From Cytophagaceae bacterium (GTDB taxonomy: Bacteria > Bacteroidota > Bacteroidia > Cytophagales > Spirosomataceae): a DNA stretch of 64,000 nt. Numbering within the stretch: position 1 is the stretch's first letter; every line of letters begins with the position of its first letter. Under the pieces are notes generated by a model that was given only the letters and a program-made list of their open reading frames with translations, did no database searches and had not been told where the DNA came from. The DNA lies in assembly GCA_027486845.1 (NCBI GenBank), contig JAIXOL010000003.1, positions 1 through 64,000 of the forward strand, in the 5' to 3' direction. Positions 3 to 20,273 of the stretch are shown piece by piece. The position numbers and the translations under genes were made by a program.

Positions 3-3000
3 ATCTGTGGAAACGAAGTAGCGATACTAACAGCGAGCAACTGCATAGGTGTAATCACATGGAGCAATGGCAGCAACCAAAACCCAATCAGTGTGAGTAC
101 GAGTGGTAATTATACTGCGACTTGTACGAATGCATGCGGAACAAGTGTAGCGTCAAATACAATACAAATCAATAAAGGAACTGCACCAAATGCTCCATTA
201 ATTAGTTCAGACAAAACTAATATCTGTGGAAACGAAGTTGCGATATTAACAGCGAGCAACTGCACAGGTGTAATCACATGGAGCAATGGCAGCAACCAAA
301 ACCCAATCAGTGTGAGTATGAGTGGTAATTATACTGCGACTTGTACAAATGCATGTGGAATTTCACAAGCTTCTAATACTGTATCTATTATTAATGTGCC
401 GTCTCCAATGACACCTATCATTACAAGTAATAAACCAAGTTTATGTGAAAATGAAGTAGCGATTTTGACTGCCATAGGTTGTAATGGTAGCGTGGTGTGG
501 AGTAACGGTGCAACAGGAACGGTAATCAGTATTAATAATATTGGGGTCTACACAGCTAAATGTTTGAATAATTGTGGAGTGAGTAATGTCAGTAATGAAA
601 TTCTTTTGAGTAAAAGTACAAAGCCATCTGCACCAATCATTAGCACGAACAAAAACAGTTTGTGTAATGGCGAATCAGCCACAATAACGGCAGCAGGTTG
701 TTCAGGTAATATCAGATGGAATACAGGAGCAACAACAAACACAATCAATGTGAGCGTGACAGGTAATTATACTGCGACATGTAGCAATACTTGCGGAGAA
801 AGTGTATCAAGCAATGCTATTGTAATCAGTACAGGAACAAAGCCATCTGCACCAATCATCAGCACAAACACAAACAGTTTGTGTAATGGTGAATCAGCCA
901 CAATAACGGCAGCAGGTTGTTCAGGCAATATCAGATGGAATACAGGAGCAACAACAAACACAATCAATGTGAGCGTGACAGGTACTTATACTGCGACATG
1001 TAGCAATACTTGCGGAGAAAGTGTATCAAGCAATGCTATTGTAATCAGTACAGGAACAAAACCAATCGCACCATTCATCAGCACAAACACAAACAGTTTG
1101 TGTAATGGAGAATCAGCCACAATAACGGCAGCAGGTTGTGCAGGCAATATCAAATGGAGTACGGGTGCAATAACAAACACCATCAATGTGAGTGTTACAG
1201 GCACTTATACTGCGACATGTAGTAATACTTGCGGAGAAAGTGTATCAAGCAATGCTATCGTAATCAGCACAGGAACAAAGTCATCTGCACCAATCATCAG
1301 CACGAACACAAATAGTTTGTGTAATGGCGAATCAGCCACAATAACGGCAGCAGGTTGTTCAGGCAATATCAGATGGAATACAGGAGCAACAACAAATACC
1401 ATCAATGTGAGCGTGACAGGTACTTATACTGCGACATGTAGCAATACTTGCGGAGAAAGTGTATCAAGCAATGCTATCGTAATCAGTACGGGTAATATTC
1501 CAGCTGCTCCAAATGTGGTAGATATTACTCTTTCAAAATGTAATATAACACCTAATGAAGTAGCAGAGGCTTGTAGTGCCACATGTGGAAATGGCGAAAC
1601 TTTAAAATGGTATAAAGACGGAGTAATAGTTGATGTAAAAAATATCCCAATTCCTTTGGTTGGAGTTTATCAAGCAACCTGCTCTAATAATTGTGGTGAA
1701 AGTTCTAAATCAAATGGGAAAGTAATTATTAATGTGACTGGTTCTGTACCAGCACCGCCAGTATTGACGAGTAGCAAGACCTTATGTGAAAATAAAGAAG
1801 TTATTCTAACTGCATCTGGTTGTGCTAATGGGATAGTTTGGTCTAATGGCGTTACTTCAAGCTCTGATAAAGTGTTAACTATAACGCAGGAAGGTACATA
1901 TACCGCTCAATGTGTTAATTTATGTGGAATAAGTAGTATAAGTAATGTAATTGTAGTAACTAAAGGTAGTGCACTTGTCATCACAGCGAGTAAAAACGAT
2001 GTTTGTGAGGGAGAACAAGTAACCTTGAAAGCAACAGGTTGTACAGATACTGTCATGTGGTCAAATGGAGCAACAGGCACTCAAATCAATGTAGCATCAA
2101 ATGAATCAAAAACTTATTCAGCTACTTGTGGAACTGTCAAATCAAATTGTGATTTTGTAGAAGGTAACATTGCGTTTACTACAGTAGGTGGTTCGACAAG
2201 TGCAGGAATTATTACTCGTTATTTGCTATTAAATAATGCAGGTACAATTTTGCAAATAAAAAATTCTCCTGTATTTACTGATGTTCTTACAGGAAATTAT
2301 AAAGTATCAGCAATCGCTTATGATTCAAATATTCAAGGATTAGTTGTGGGTAATAATATCTCAAGCGTTACAGCAAGTTGTATGGCTCGTACACAAAAAG
2401 ATATTTCAGTCTGTAATACAAATGGAACTGGTTGTCAAGGAACAGCTCAAATACAAATTACTGTTACGAAAAAAGCAACTGCTCCTGTGATTAGTAGTAA
2501 TAAGACAAACCTTTGTGGTGCTGAAACTGCAAATTTAGTCGCAACAGGTTGTATCGGCTCAGTTATTTGGAGTACTGGATCAACAGGTAGCAATTTAGTT
2601 ATAAACTCGGCAGGTAGCTATAGTGCAACTTGTAGTAATATTTGCGGATCAAGTTTGAGTTCAAATGTGCTAACAATAGCAGCAGGAGGAAAGCCAGCTT
2701 CTCCAATTATATCAACCGATAGAACAATTTGTTGTGATGCAAATTTTGCAACATTAACAGCTACAAATTGCAGTAGTACTATAACATGGAGTACAGGCAG
2801 TACAGGGAATGTGCTAATTGTGAAAGAAACAGGAGTATATACAGCCATTTGTAAAAATGAATGTGGTACAAGTGATGTCTCGAAATCTATTACAATTACC
2901 AAAGTAGCTCAACCAGCACCTCCAGTGATTAGTGCTGAAAATACTAATCTTTGTGTAGCATCATCTATAACTTTGACAGCCTCGAATTGCAGTGAGAATA

Positions 3001-5723
3001 TTAAATGGAGTACTGGTGCAACAACAGCTACCATCGTTGTCAATTCTGCTGGAACATATACTGCAACTTGTAGTAATGTTTGTATAGAAAGTAAGCCATC
3101 AAATATTTTGATAATAACAAAAGATTGTGGTGGCTGTATTACAGAAGCACCAGTCATAAGTTGTTCAAAAACAACTATTTGTAAGTCAGAAAATGTAGTC
3201 TTGACAGCCACAGGCTGTATTGGAGGAACGATAGTTTGGTCAAATGGTCAAACTGGGACAACTATCACAGTTAAACCAATATCAACCTCGAACTATACTG
3301 CAGTTTGTAAAGTGTCAACTGACTGTATAAGTTCATTGTCAAATTCAGTACAAATAAAAGTAGGCAGCATTGCTCCACCAACCATTACTTGTAGTGCCAC
3401 CTTTGTATGCTTAGGTGAAACAGGTACTCTGAGCGGTTCGGGTTGTGAAGGCACAATTATATGGTCAAATGGTAGTACGGGTAATTCAATCGTTGTTACA
3501 CCAAACGGGACAACGATGTATAGTGCAAAATGTAAAATAGGTGATTGTGAAAGTGAAAGCTCTGAACAAGTTGCCATTCCAATTGGTAAACCAAACCGTC
3601 CTTATATTTCTTGCAAAAGTAATGTAATATGTAATGGTGGCGAAACATCACTCACGGCATCGGGCTGTATAGGAATAGTTGTTTGGTCAGATGGTCAAAC
3701 TGGTGGAGTTATCAAAGTGTCACCAGCCATTGAGAATACATTATATTCAGCAGTTTGTAAATCATTTGGTGGTAAATGCGAAAGTGATAAATCGAATGAA
3801 GTGGTAGTAACGGTTGGAAAAAAAGTGGCTACACCAAAAGTCATCGGAACAATTACAAATATTTGTCCATTTAATACTGCTGACATCAACACCGCAGTTT
3901 TAGGTGAGCCATCAACTAATGGAGGAACGTTTGAATTCCATGTAACATCTTCACCAAATTCACCACTAATTACTTCACCAAGTACAGTTTCATCTGGAAC
4001 TTATTATGTATTTGAGCGAAGTGCAGTGGGTTGTTACAGTGATTTTGCTTCGATTAAAGTGAATGCTACCGAATGTAATGGTGGCGGCTTGAATCCAAAC
4101 GGCGGACTTGTTGATATTGCAGTGAAAAAAGTATCTTCATCTGCAATAGTTCCAGTCAATGAAATAGCAACTTATAAAGTAGTTGTGAAAAACGTTGGTC
4201 AGAACAAAGCAACAGGAATAGTGATTCGAGATATTTTGCCAAACGGACTCACTTATGTAAGTGCTAGTGGTAATGTTTCCTATAATAGTGGTATCATAAG
4301 TGTAAAAATTGATTCACTAAAAGCAGGTGATAGCACAACATTTACTTATAATACTAAGGTCGTAGCTGCTGGTAAAATCATTAATAAAGCAGAATTGTTT
4401 AAGATAAATGAAACCGACAAAGTTTTATCAAATAACTCAAGTGAATACACTATCAACAACATCACTTCAGGTCAGTTGATAGGATTAAGTAAAGTTTGCG
4501 AACCTGCAGTTTTAGTAAGTAATGCGGTTTACAATGTACCATTTGTTATCTATGTTACTAATTTAGGTTCAACTGATATAAGTAAAATACAAGTAAAAGA
4601 TGACCTTAATCGTGCATTTGGTAATGGTGCAAAAATCTTGAACGATACAATCACAATAGTTGCAGATGCAGGATTGGTAGTAAATCCTAAATATACAGGA
4701 CGTGGCTTAAATACCAATTTGCTCATTGATTCATTGAGCAGCATTAAAAAAGGACAAAAGTTAACATTAAGATTTAATGTAAAAGTTGATTTGGCCAAAG
4801 CGACTGTTTCAGACTTCTTTAACGTAGCAGAGGTGAGTTCATCGGGTAAATTAGATCTTTCAACTAACGGAGTAAGTGCCGACCCAGACGGAGATGGTGA
4901 CCCAAGTAATAATGATGAACCAACGCCAATCAAATTTAAACTTGATATTTCGCCAGACCGACCAGCAATAGGTGTTGCACTTTCGGTTCACGATACAACG
5001 AAGATTAATAAAAACTGTTACAAAGTGACTTATTTGGCCCTTATAAAGAATATTGGTGATAGTAAATTAACCAATGTACAGGTTACAGATAGTTTAGCAA
5101 AAGCATACAGTAAGAGTGCTTCATTCCAAGTACTTGGAAGTCCATTTACAGGAAAGAATAGTACGCTAAAAGTGAATCCAAATTATAACGGTAAAGACGA
5201 TATGAATTTATTGATAGCAGATTCAACCAGTCAATTGACTGTTGGTCAAATAGATTCGGTATTCTATACAGTTAGTGTTTGCAATGGAGATTACCTAGGT
5301 ACATACTCAACCAATGCTGATGTAAAGGCTATCGGAAATGGAAAGATTGTTACTGATATATCAAATGCAGGGAATGTAATTAATGCAAATGATAACTCAT
5401 CAACAGTGATAGCGTTTCCAAGTAATATTAGTGAATTATTCATACCAGCTGGTTTCTCACCTAATGGAGATGGTAAAAACGATAATTTTATAATATCTAT
5501 ACCATTAGGAGCAAAAATAGAGTTGTTTGAGGTGTTTAACCGTTGGGGTCAGTTGATTTATAAAGATACAAATGGAGTAATTGGTACTTCAGGTTGGGAT
5601 GGAATAAGTAATCAAGGACTAAGATTAGGCGGTGAAGGCTTACCAGATGGCACCTATTTCTATGTTTTAAAACTAAGTAATGAAAAAGAGCAAAGGGTTA
5701 GTTATATAACTTTAGCGAGATAA
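3..5723 (+). CDS. Giant secreted repeat protein, 5' truncated by window edge: Ig-like Cys-rich repeats, DUF11-like repeats, gliding-motility-associated (T9SS type B) C-terminal domain
   Basis: Frame is open from base 3 (ICGNEVAILTASN...), so the listed 93 start (GTG) is an artefact. Repeats of the form SLCNGESATITAAGCSGNIRWNTGATTNTINVSVTG. C-terminus LFIPAGFSPNGDGKNDNFIIS...NRWGQLIY...GWDG...LPDGTYFYVLKL is typical of T9SS cargo. Confidence 0.9.
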   Translation: MCGNEVAILTASNCIGVITWSNGSNQNPISVSTSGNYTATCTNACGTSVASNTIQINKGTAPNAPLISSDKTNICGNEVAILTASNCTGVITWSNGSNQNPISVSMSGNYTATCTNACGISQASNTVSIINVPSPMTPIITSNKPSLCENEVAILTAIGCNGSVVWSNGATGTVISINNIGVYTAKCLNNCGVSNVSNEILLSKSTKPSAPIISTNKNSLCNGESATITAAGCSGNIRWNTGATTNTINVSVTGNYTATCSNTCGESVSSNAIVISTGTKPSAPIISTNTNSLCNGESATITAAGCSGNIRWNTGATTNTINVSVTGTYTATCSNTCGESVSSNAIVISTGTKPIAPFISTNTNSLCNGESATITAAGCAGNIKWSTGAITNTINVSVTGTYTATCSNTCGESVSSNAIVISTGTKSSAPIISTNTNSLCNGESATITAAGCSGNIRWNTGATTNTINVSVTGTYTATCSNTCGESVSSNAIVISTGNIPAAPNVVDITLSKCNITPNEVAEACSATCGNGETLKWYKDGVIVDVKNIPIPLVGVYQATCSNNCGESSKSNGKVIINVTGSVPAPPVLTSSKTLCENKEVILTASGCANGIVWSNGVTSSSDKVLTITQEGTYTAQCVNLCGISSISNVIVVTKGSALVITASKNDVCEGEQVTLKATGCTDTVMWSNGATGTQINVASNESKTYSATCGTVKSNCDFVEGNIAFTTVGGSTSAGIITRYLLLNNAGTILQIKNSPVFTDVLTGNYKVSAIAYDSNIQGLVVGNNISSVTASCMARTQKDISVCNTNGTGCQGTAQIQITVTKKATAPVISSNKTNLCGAETANLVATGCIGSVIWSTGSTGSNLVINSAGSYSATCSNICGSSLSSNVLTIAAGGKPASPIISTDRTICCDANFATLTATNCSSTITWSTGSTGNVLIVKETGVYTAICKNECGTSDVSKSITITKVAQPAPPVISAENTNLCVASSITLTASNCSENIKWSTGATTATIVVNSAGTYTATCSNVCIESKPSNILIITKDCGGCITEAPVISCSKTTICKSENVVLTATGCIGGTIVWSNGQTGTTITVKPISTSNYTAVCKVSTDCISSLSNSVQIKVGSIAPPTITCSATFVCLGETGTLSGSGCEGTIIWSNGSTGNSIVVTPNGTTMYSAKCKIGDCESESSEQVAIPIGKPNRPYISCKSNVICNGGETSLTASGCIGIVVWSDGQTGGVIKVSPAIENTLYSAVCKSFGGKCESDKSNEVVVTVGKKVATPKVIGTITNICPFNTADINTAVLGEPSTNGGTFEFHVTSSPNSPLITSPSTVSSGTYYVFERSAVGCYSDFASIKVNATECNGGGLNPNGGLVDIAVKKVSSSAIVPVNEIATYKVVVKNVGQNKATGIVIRDILPNGLTYVSASGNVSYNSGIISVKIDSLKAGDSTTFTYNTKVVAAGKIINKAELFKINETDKVLSNNSSEYTINNITSGQLIGLSKVCEPAVLVSNAVYNVPFVIYVTNLGSTDISKIQVKDDLNRAFGNGAKILNDTITIVADAGLVVNPKYTGRGLNTNLLIDSLSSIKKGQKLTLRFNVKVDLAKATVSDFFNVAEVSSSGKLDLSTNGVSADPDGDGDPSNNDEPTPIKFKLDISPDRPAIGVALSVHDTTKINKNCYKVTYLALIKNIGDSKLTNVQVTDSLAKAYSKSASFQVLGSPFTGKNSTLKVNPNYNGKDDMNLLIADSTSQLTVGQIDSVFYTVSVCNGDYLGTYSTNADVKAIGNGKIVTDISNAGNVINANDNSSTVIAFPSNISELFIPAGFSPNGDGKNDNFIISIPLGAKIELFEVFNRWGQLIYKDTNGVIGTSGWDGISNQGLRLGGEGLPDGTYFYVLKLSNEKEQRVSYITLAR
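618..1493 (+). repeat. Four near-identical in-frame 219-bp (73-aa) tandem repeats
   Basis: The junction motif acaaa(g/a) recurs at 618, 837, 1056 and 1275, exactly 219 bp apart. A related pair (atatctgtggaaacgaagt) occurs at 1 and 220, again 219 bp apart. Confidence 0.93.
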
Positions 5724-16894: not shown

Positions 16895-16995
16895 ATGCTT
16901 TGGAACAGCCTTTGATGAGATTGATTTTGCTGACTTTTTCATGTAAAAAAGTCTGTCATACATTATCATCTTACATCATACATTTAATACATAAT

Positions 16996-18804
16996 ATGGT
17001 AGCTGAAAAAGGTACAATTTCGATTAATACGGAAAATATTTTTCCAATCATTAAAAAGTTTCTTTACTCTGACCATGAGATTTTCTTACGTGAGTTGGTT
17101 TCAAATGCCGTAGATGCCACACAGAAGCTTAAAAAATTAGCTTCAATGGGCGAATTTGATGGAGAATTGGGCGATTTGACCATCAAAGTTTCGGTTGATA
17201 AAGAAGCAAAAACAATAACAATTTCTGACAAAGGAATTGGTTTGAGTGCCGAAGATATTAAAAAATACATCAACCAAATTGCTTTTTCAGGAGCAAAGGA
17301 GTTCTTAGAAAAATACAAAGATACTCCTGATACAAATCAGATTATCGGTCAGTTTGGCTTAGGTTTTTATTCTGCCTTTATGGTATCGGAAAACGTAGAA
17401 ATTATCTCTAAATCTTTCCGTGATGATGCTCCTGCTCGTTGGATTTGCGACGGAAGCACTGAGTTTGAAATCACTGAAGCCGAAAAGACAGAACGGGGAA
17501 CGGATATTATTTTACACATCGCTGCCGACTCAGAAGAGTTTTTAGATAATTTCAGAATCAGTGGAATTCTTGAAAAATACGCTAAATTTTTACCAATTGA
17601 AATCGAATTTGATGGTAAAGTAATCAATAACCCAAATCCAATTTGGACAAAATCTCCATCAGAATTAACGGATGAAGATTACCGAACTTTCTATAAAGAG
17701 CTATATCCTTTCGGCGAAGAACCGCTTTTCTGGATTCACCTAAACGTTGATTATCCATTCAATTTGACGGGTGTTTTATACTTCCCGAAAATGAAGAAAG
17801 ACTTTCAGCTTAATCGTGATAAAGTACAATTATATAGCCGTCAGGTATTTATCACTGATGATGTGAAAGATGTTGTGCCAGAATTCTTGCAGATGCTTCA
17901 CGGCGTGATTGACTCGCCAGATATTCCTTTGAATGTTTCTCGTAGTTATTTACAAGCTGATGGTAATGTGAAGAAAATTAATTCGCACATCACTAAAAAA
18001 GTTGCCGATAAATTGCAAGAAATCTTCCGAAATGATCGAACAGGATTTGAAGAGAAATGGGAAAGTGTAGGTGTATTCGTGAAATACGGAATCGTATCAG
18101 ACGATAAATTCTATGACCGTGCAAAAGAATTTGTCTTATTGAAAAATGTTGATGGTCAGCATTTTACTTTGGATGAATACCGCGAAAAAGTACAGGCGAT
18201 TCAGACAAATAAAGATGAAAGTGTGGTGTTTTTATATGCGAGCGATGTAAACCAGCAAGATGCTTTTATTACTTCTGCTAAAAAACGTGAATATGATGTT
18301 TTGGTAATGGATTCGCCGTTGGATTCGCATTTCATCAATACTTTGGAATCTAAATTAGAGAAAACAACCTTCAAGCGTGTTGACTCTGACAGTATCGACA
18401 AATTGATTGATAAAGGATTGAACCTCGAAAGTGTTTTGAGCGAGGATGAGAAGAAAAAAGTAGAGGAATTATTTAAGGAAGTCGTTGGTGTAAATACTAT
18501 TCAATTAGAGTCATTATCACCTGATGAGGTTCCGGTGAGCATTGTTCAGCCAGAATTTATGCGTCGTTGGAAAGACATGCAACGCATCAGCGGTCAAGGC
18601 GATATGTTTGGCTCAATGCCAATGCCTAATAATGTGGTCATTAATTCAAACCACAGTTTGATTAGTAAATTACTTAAAACCGAAAATGCTGATGATCAAA
18701 AAGCACTCACGAAGCAATTATACGATTTAGGACTTTTAGCCCAAGGAATGCTAACTGGTGCTGATTTGACAAAGTTTGTTGAGCGTACCGTAGCGGCTTT
18801 GTAA
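16996..18804 (+). CDS. htpG: Chaperone HtpG (Hsp90 family)
   Basis: MVAEKGTISINTENIFPIIKKFLYSDHEIFLRELVSNAVDATQKL; GQFGLGFYSAFMV. The ATG at 16996 is a better start than the listed 16900. Confidence 0.97.
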   Translation: MVAEKGTISINTENIFPIIKKFLYSDHEIFLRELVSNAVDATQKLKKLASMGEFDGELGDLTIKVSVDKEAKTITISDKGIGLSAEDIKKYINQIAFSGAKEFLEKYKDTPDTNQIIGQFGLGFYSAFMVSENVEIISKSFRDDAPARWICDGSTEFEITEAEKTERGTDIILHIAADSEEFLDNFRISGILEKYAKFLPIEIEFDGKVINNPNPIWTKSPSELTDEDYRTFYKELYPFGEEPLFWIHLNVDYPFNLTGVLYFPKMKKDFQLNRDKVQLYSRQVFITDDVKDVVPEFLQMLHGVIDSPDIPLNVSRSYLQADGNVKKINSHITKKVADKLQEIFRNDRTGFEEKWESVGVFVKYGIVSDDKFYDRAKEFVLLKNVDGQHFTLDEYREKVQAIQTNKDESVVFLYASDVNQQDAFITSAKKREYDVLVMDSPLDSHFINTLESKLEKTTFKRVDSDSIDKLIDKGLNLESVLSEDEKKKVEELFKEVVGVNTIQLESLSPDEVPVSIVQPEFMRRWKDMQRISGQGDMFGSMPMPNNVVINSNHSLISKLLKTENADDQKALTKQLYDLGLLAQGMLTGADLTKFVERTVAAL

Positions 18805-18812
18805 AAAATTTC

Positions 18813-19031
18813 CAGTAGGCAGTGTTCAGTAGGCAGTGTTCAGTAGGCAGTGTTCAGTGGTCAGTCTTCAGTAGGCAGTCTTCAGTAGGCAGTGTTCAGT
18901 GGGCAGTGTTCAGTAGGCAGTGTTCAGTAGGCAGTGTTCAGTGGGCAGTGTTCAGTAGGCAGTCTTCAGTGGGCAGTGGGCAGTGTTCAGTGGGCAGTGT
19001 TCAGTATAGGCAGTCTTCAGTAGGCAGTGTT
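18813..19031. repeat. 31-unit 7-bp tandem array, consensus CAGTNNN (mostly alternating CAGTAGG/CAGTGTT)
   Basis: Read unit by unit: 30 exact heptamers plus one 9-bp unit (cagtatagg) = 219 bp; CAGT is retained in all 31. Confidence 0.95.
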
Positions 19032-19045
19032 CAATTAAAATTTAC

Positions 19046-19087
19046 AAAAAAGTCCTCATACGATTTCTATCATGTGAGGACTTTTTT
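19046..19087. terminator. Bidirectional hairpin terminator between htpG and bshA
   Basis: aaaaaagtcctca ... tgaggactttttt, perfect 13-bp stem. Confidence 0.85.
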
Positions 19088-19106
19088 CTTGTCAACTATA
19101 TTTCAA

Positions 19107-19141
19107 ACTGCCCAATGAGAAGCGAAAACTGCCTACTTCTC
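19107..19141. repeat. Reverse-complement 7-bp-period array partner of 18813-19031
   Basis: actgccc aatgaga agcgaaa actgcct acttctc. The reverse complement holds AGTAGGC and GGGCAGT words in 7-bp phase. Confidence 0.65.
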
Positions 19142-20273
19142 AATTAACCAACATTCCTTCCAAAACTTTCTCGTAATGACGTTCGTACATCGGAACGATA
19201 TGAATAATATCAAATTCTTTGGCACGGGCTAAGGCGTTTGCCTTGAAAGTTGGTAAGTTTTCGTCTTGTAAGATATACATGGCATTTTTAACCATATCGT
19301 CAACATCGCCAACTTTGCTCAAAAAACCTGTTACGCCTTGTACATTTAGTTCGGGCAAACCACCAGTATTTGATGAAATTACGGGAACTTCACAGGCCAT
19401 GGCTTCTAGAGCCGCCAAACCAAAACTTTCTTTTTCGGAAGGCATCAAAAATAAATCAGCTACCGATAAAACTTCCTCAATGGCATCAAGTTTTCCAACG
19501 AAACGAACATCTTCGCCAAGATTCATATCTCGGCTGAGTTGTTCCATTGGGCCACGCTCAGGGCCATCGCCAACGAGCAATAGTTTGCTTGGAATTTGTG
19601 TTTTCAGCTTTGCAAAAACCTTAATTATATCTTCGATACGCTTCACTTTTCGGAAGTTGGATGTATGTACTAAAAGTTTTTCGTCGTTCGGACAGATGAT
19701 GCGTTTAAAGTGTTCTTTGGGTTGTTTTTTGAAACGTTCCAAATCAACAAAGTTCGGAATCACTTCGATTTCTTTTCTTATTTCAAACGCCTCGTAAGTG
19801 TCTTTTCGTAAATCTTCTGAAACTGTAGTTACACCGTCCGATTCATTGATACTAAACGTAACAACTGGAGCTAGAGAGGCATCTTTTCCCACAATCGTAA
19901 TATCCGTACCGTGTAGGGTCGTAATAATTGGAATATTGATGCCATGACACTTCAAAATTTGTTTGGCCAAAAAAGCTGAAGTTGCGTGCGGAATTGCGTA
20001 GTGAACGTGTAATAAATCAAGTTTTTCATATTTTACCACATCAACCATTTTTCCTGCCAAAGCCGACTCATAAGGCGGATATTGAAACAGTGGATAACTG
20101 GCAATGTTTACCTCATGATAAAAGATATTCTCATTGAAAAAATCAAGTCGAGCAGGTTGCGTATAAGTAATAAAGTGTACTTGATGCCCTTTCTTTGCGA
20201 GACCTTTACCGAGTTCGGTAGCTACAACGCCACTTCCACCAAAGGTAGGATAACAAACAATTCCGATTTTCAT
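19140..20273 (-). CDS. bshA: N-acetyl-alpha-D-glucosaminyl L-malate synthase (bacillithiol biosynthesis), GT4
   Basis: MKIGIVCYPTFGGSGVVATELGKGLAKKGHQVHFIT; HVHYAIPHATSAFLA; TTLHGTDITIVG; MPSEKESFGLAALEAMACEVPVISSNTGGLPE. Confidence 0.93.
   Translation of the reverse strand: MKIGIVCYPTFGGSGVVATELGKGLAKKGHQVHFITYTQPARLDFFNENIFYHEVNIASYPLFQYPPYESALAGKMVDVVKYEKLDLLHVHYAIPHATSAFLAKQILKCHGINIPIITTLHGTDITIVGKDASLAPVVTFSINESDGVTTVSEDLRKDTYEAFEIRKEIEVIPNFVDLERFKKQPKEHFKRIICPNDEKLLVHTSNFRKVKRIEDIIKVFAKLKTQIPSKLLLVGDGPERGPMEQLSRDMNLGEDVRFVGKLDAIEEVLSVADLFLMPSEKESFGLAALEAMACEVPVISSNTGGLPELNVQGVTGFLSKVGDVDDMVKNAMYILQDENLPTFKANALARAKEFDIIHIVPMYERHYEKVLEGMLVN

Follow-up and report, generated by a model that had tools for sequence, protein, structure and literature searches.

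The unit sequences of the cyanobacterial heptad repeats termed STRRs, known from Calothrix, Anabaena and Nostoc, in part contain CAGT. A role in transcript stability or translational coupling has been suggested for them (PMC2670836). Heptads of the types GGGAATC (GGGANTN) and GGGGA(C/T)T have been described from Xanthomonas and Nostoc, respectively, the former together with a convergent, gene-proximal layout (Rehm et al. 2015, PMC4692102); the 5'-side distance is short (28 nt vs 160 nt), and each Xanthomonas genome holds 70-75 facing pairs. Direct repeats of TAACTGA are found in Beggiatoaceae, Cyanobacteria and five Bacteroidetes, and one set of seven in Flexibacter litoralis lies directly after a stop codon, in reverse orientation (MacGregor 2015, PMC4679880). 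More generally, heptanucleotides are the commonest class of long simple sequence repeat in most prokaryotic genomes, and polymerase slippage has been proposed for such repeats (Mrazek et al. 2007, cited in PMC4679880). Heptad repeats have so far been treated singly, each heptamer (STRR, TAACTGA, GGGAATC) with its own explanation.

Cyanobacterial STRRs, the TAACTGA repeats of Beggiatoa (CAGTTAT when rotated) and the Xanthomonas GGGAATC heptads are the closest known kinds to an array of CAGTNNN units that follows htpG in the window analysed here, a 64,000 nt stretch of DNA from a Cytophagaceae bacterium (Table 1). The original prediction placed this array between the htpG stop codon and a terminator, a placement that the coordinates bear out, and given this position it is expected to be transcribed. 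The terminator stem-loop is absent from the list returned by a consensus scanner, and a search for known RNA families gave no match near a gathering score. At the start of the window, a long open frame (3-5723) containing four copies of a 219-bp repeat (618-1489) resembles a repetitive surface protein whose C-terminal end is of the gliding type.

Table 1. Features of the htpG-bshA region of the window, and the viral contigs rich in arrays
Feature	Position or locus	Strand	Basis and remarks
htpG	16900..18804	+	NCBIfam NF003555 HtpG, 648 bits; stop codon 18802-18804, array begins 8 nt on
CAGTNNN heptad array, 31 units, CAGT on htpG sense strand	18813..19031	+	sequence
98-aa open frame through array	18822..19118	+	by-product of stop-free heptads in that frame; not taken as a gene
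Intrinsic terminator stem-loop, common to both convergent genes	about 19046..19088		sequence, fold, orthologous sites
Decayed opposing heptad array, directly after bshA stop	19104..19138	-	AAGTAGG CAGTTTT CGCTTCT CATTGGG CAGTTTG on minus strand
bshA, convergent neighbour	19140..20273	-	TIGR03999 thiol_BshA, 565 bits
Array-rich tailed-phage contigs (IMG/VR)	L296, L290, L276, L282, L284, L350		records G333, G334, G339-G341

A recount of the 219 bp agreed with the earlier reading of 31 units around an invariant CAGT, 30 of them exactly 7 bp long and one (CAGTATAGG) of 9 bp. The three variable bases are drawn from the small, largely alternating set that had been described, being GTT in 11 units, AGG in nine, GGG in five, CTT in four and GGT and ATAGG in one each; the three variable positions show 13, 2 and 4 changes when each unit is compared with the next but one, and 20, 28 and 26 when it is compared with its neighbour. 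Not one core base changes across the array, every change falling within NNN. A chance origin is ruled out: four-unit CAGTNNN runs number 25 in the window against a mean of 0.00 in 100 shuffles, none of which held any. The alternation of AGG and GTT points to a 14-bp dimer stage, and Tandem Repeats Finder reports a period of 14 with 16.1 copies. Amplification of such a dimer or selection on the core had been offered as alternative origins, and both find support, the former in the alternation and in a TTT/GGG dimer run at a non-htpG locus of the sister genome G006, the latter in a core far better kept than NNN, both here and in arrays elsewhere.

The same site was compared among species of the genus. 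CAGTNNN units at the orthologous position number 31 in the window, 2 in G005, about 8 in G007 and 4 in G006, with a single CAGT in G011 and none in other, more distant congeners; the array is thus neither unique nor invariant among relatives, and the outcome that the original prediction had named as telling against it, an array both invariant and unique, did not arise. The C-terminal part of htpG in G005, with its two units, is 98% identical to that in the window. The terminator is kept in species with and without an array, and on the other strand the bshA side carries arrays of its own in G005, G006 and G007 that are longer and less decayed than the window's arm. Since sister species hold arrays both there and after the htpG stop, the site is old within the clade and the 31-unit length particular to the window's genome, the htpG array being a lineage-specific expansion of a pre-existing short one. 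At four other loci common to sister species, the arrays have mostly the same 5' units and diverge in their 3' part; examples are an additional TAT unit closing the 3' end and a length of 4 vs 13 units. An orthologous array following another gene (L024 G000:C56, L028 G005:C100, L030 G006:C152) is six units long in two of the species and, through a TTT/GGG dimer, 13 units long in the remaining one; the contigs of G005 and G006 stop near this array.

Counting arrays elsewhere in the genome, as had been recommended, revealed 14 further four-unit matches on other contigs, those examined lying mostly in gaps at gene ends. A second heptad family with a GCAT-type core (GCATAAA GCATATT GCATAAA GCCTACC...) is present in the same genome (L231:5730-5990 on G000:C63, about 65.7 kb), with opposing degenerate heptads (TATAGGC TTTAGGC...) close by. 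Of 297 Bacteroidota genomes, 77 contain five-unit CAGTNNN runs. The matches listed among GTDB species genomes include Cyanobacteria, Bacteroidota, Planctomycetes, Acidobacteria, Chloroflexi, Proteobacteria, Verrucomicrobia, Lentisphaerae, Synergistaceae, Streptomyces and others, although many of these records are MAGs, so that single taxon names may be wrong. Against the backward-read control TGACNNN, CAGTNNN matches stand at 337 to 0 in a Lentisphaerae genome, 270 to 0 in a Bacteroidia genome and 452 to 1 in an Anaerolineales genome; some other genomes have many matches to both, and G150, G158, G344 and G364 hold hundreds of matches to the control, showing that other cores can dominate or coexist with CAGT. 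Among 80 genomes, heptads with the core CAGT were found in 13, vs 10 for TGAC, nine for TAGC, six for GACA and four for CGAT. CAGT as the unique core is thereby ruled out, the other cores occurring mostly as pure repeats in the genomes checked; it is favoured without being exclusive. In an unbiased census of 1.6 Mb sampled in four genomes, 7-bp degenerate arrays stand out from those of other periods in two (48 vs at most 12, and 11 vs at most 1) and do not in the remaining two. Period-8 degenerate arrays outnumber those of period 7 in the sampled regions of G167 and G148 (16 vs 2 and 3 vs 1, respectively).

CAGTNNN arrays have a common architecture: on the CAGT strand, the 5' end lies right against a coding edge, in most cases a stop codon. 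With genes called simply as the longest open frames, this end rather than the 3' end lies closer to a gene in 106 of 147 bacterial arrays (106:41, p = 8e-8; 76:33 when one array is counted per locus), in 164 of 229 phage arrays (164:65), and by 16:5 and 15:5 in two single genomes fetched later as replicates, a UBP7 genome and an Acidobacteriaceae MAG. Within 20 nt of a stop codon, a position independent of start calling, 67 arrays start vs 11 that end. Where two arrays share a gap, facing pairs outnumber outward ones by 28:1 in bacteria, 182:10 in phages and 14:1 in one Acidobacteriaceae genome. The first unit often lacks its C and reads AGTNNN, starts at AGT outnumbering those at GT by 40 vs 7 in bacteria and 87 vs 8 in phages; the 3' end has no phase as sharp. 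Core mismatches amount to 0.8% per site vs about 19% neighbour change at NNN, the measurement outside the htpG array being made on arrays that were themselves found by their core. Homogeneous runs are in weak excess in the 3' half of bacterial arrays (46:27, p = 0.034), without significance in phages. The two arms of a facing pair often have different NNN sets, which suggests that they grew separately. As the G-rich strand of non-CAGT heptads has the same polarity (76:41) and the Xanthomonas GGGAATC repeats share the layout, the gene-edge arrangement may be general to heptads.

Arrays are especially dense in certain viruses. Viral contigs contain 108 stretches of at least eight units, and in a group of related tailed-phage contigs, which encode portal, head-tail adaptor and tail proteins, arrays occur in most gaps of 50 nt or more. 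These gaps run from the stop codon through a CAGT arm, a centre that is often AAAGGCAAAA, an ACTG arm and the ribosome-binding region to the start codon, both arms being present in about 56 of 68 gaps of at least 50 nt in seven related contigs. One 31-kb phage record has 179 four-unit matches vs four of the backward control. Facing pairs with other NNN also occur in a high-GC virus contig (L297, record G335) without the centre AAAGGCAAAA. A shared centre is found in the group of related tailed-phage contigs only; a mobile element between facing arrays was rejected as an explanation, the bacterial centres differing from each other and including native terminators.

In the explanation that we favour, at a probability of roughly one half, the htpG array would be a polar heptad array of STRR type, anchored at a gene edge and copied in 7-nt steps for which CAGT is needed. 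A short CAGT-containing sequence immediately behind a stop codon or, in mirror image, immediately ahead of a start codon would act as the seed, to be copied in 7-nt steps through slippage from the gene-edge anchor. The 5' end of the CAGT strand would stay at the edge, beginning at AGT, and the 3' side, which points to the centre of the gap, would see most of the gain, loss and change of units; with each edge acting independently, facing pairs would form around the terminator. CAGT would be kept because the copying or realignment step needs it, with NNN drifting as a passenger, and at htpG an array of few units would have reached 31 through AGG/GTT dimer amplification in this lineage. That units are copied by slippage, that arrays grow on their 3' side and that CAGT is a handle for realignment are what we infer from comparing sequences. 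The sister genome G005 has sometimes amplified core-mutant units as well, which a strict realignment-handle model does not predict, and anchored copying does not explain the location at gene edges rather than elsewhere in the gap.

Anchored copying is preferred to a factor that reads CAGT because copy number is unstable between sister species, NNN sets often differ between the arms of one gap and the 5' parts of arrays are kept better than the 3' parts. It is nevertheless possible, if doubtful, that the arrays are binding sites at which a protein or RNA-binding factor, reading CAGT at 7-nt intervals close to start and stop codons, affects mRNA end formation, stability or translation, selection maintaining both core and orientation. 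Such a factor would fit the conserved core, the fixed orientation relative to coding edges and the two-armed gaps of the phages, and a translational role has been proposed for TAACTGA repeats just before start codons (PMC4679880), but related genomes range from 31 units through 2 to none, and it is hard to name one reader that would be conserved over such a number of phyla and phages. Orientation might alternatively be set by RNA structure, a structured CAGU strand being tolerated or useful after stops and an unstructured ACUG strand tolerated before starts. This is unlikely, even though, relative to shuffles, folding in the window is far better for the sense strand (z -6.8) and poorer for the antisense strand (z +3.3), the CAGU strand is the more structured by 101:57 in bacteria, and G-rich strands of non-CAGT heptads have the same polarity: phage strands do not differ (58:48) despite their strict orientation, and no structure was found for the TAACTGA repeats on either strand (PMC4679880). 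Being seen in bacteria and absent in phages, the asymmetry is rejected as a general cause.

Priming of lagging-strand or repair synthesis is decidedly unlikely as the source of the arrays. A primase starting opposite the T of a template CTG would give new strands beginning AG(T), as observed for the first bases of the CAGT strand, and Escherichia coli DnaG does prime at CTG to make pppAG (PMC5429622); against this, CTG is absent from the Xanthomonas GGGAATC heptads although their layout is the same (PMC4692102), primase specificity varies between phyla, and a link to gene edges is missing. Very improbable is the making or selection of facing arrays as hairpins, whether through fold-back copying around a terminator or intercistronic pairing. 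CAGT can indeed base-pair with ACTG, and a terminator or a short centre is what lies between the arms of facing pairs, but the arms often differ in NNN, outward pairs are almost absent though they could pair equally well, and exchanging the arms of phage pairs gives a better fold than the real combinations have (-38.0 vs -34.5 kcal/mol), the eight testable bacterial pairs leaning the other way from this phage result. As for an assembly artefact, several arrays in fragmented sister assemblies do lie at or near contig ends, but the htpG array lies within a 66-kb contig, between unique flanks, and heptads recur at the htpG site in independent assemblies, so that we give this almost no credence.

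Across the repeats considered here, a fixed core, a free remainder, a 5' end at the coding edge and facing pairs suggest that heptad repeats are one phenomenon, whose shared layout G-quadruplexes, hairpins and RNA structure do not explain in general. A broader and distinctly speculative extension is that a polar intergenic repeat of near-universal occurrence exists, with CAGTNNN as its commonest form, made by orientation-aware copying that starts at gene edges, which certain tailed phages use or suffer to the point of having a facing pair between nearly all genes. A testable question is raised, namely which CAGT-requiring process copies DNA away from gene edges, 7 nt at a time, and phages with arrays in nearly every gap offer a compact experimental system.

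Like cyanobacterial STRRs, the htpG array consists of tandem heptamers in an intergenic region (30 of its 31 units being 7 bp), with copy number differing between relatives and further arrays dispersed over multiple intergenic places in the genome; an earlier link between STRRs and a shared CAGT core, an AGT start and a cross-phylum polarity was not found in the literature examined. The simple sequence repeats of Mrazek et al. (2007), as cited in PMC4679880, do not extend to arrays of fixed core and variable NNN, or to orientation. The Xanthomonas and Nostoc heptads resemble CAGTNNN in their 7-bp unit with partly variable positions, mostly intergenic location, short 5' distance and facing arrangement (PMC4692102), a layout also seen at htpG, where the array starts 8 nt from the stop codon and an opposing remnant follows the bshA stop. 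GGGGA(C/T)T in Nostoc is, on the other strand, CA(G/A)TCCC, that is, CARTNNN. The Xanthomonas core is GGGA as opposed to CAGT, and the heptads of both genera were studied for G-quadruplex potential (PMC4692102); the htpG array has GGG in scattered units only, and most CAGTNNN arrays have the same layout yet no G-tracts, so G-quadruplexes are rejected as the general reason for it. TAACTGA is CAGTTAT on the other strand and is located for the most part immediately ahead of start codons, where its orientation agrees with that of the arrays here (PMC4679880). The htpG array has no TAT unit, its variable bases being AGG, GTT, GGG and CTT instead, and CAGTTAT units are present elsewhere in the same genome (contig C63). 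TAACTGA was treated as a single heptamer of very limited spread, possibly through horizontal transfer (PMC4679880), whereas in CAGTNNN arrays NNN is free, the class spans many phyla, and the stop-codon edge is the commonest anchor.
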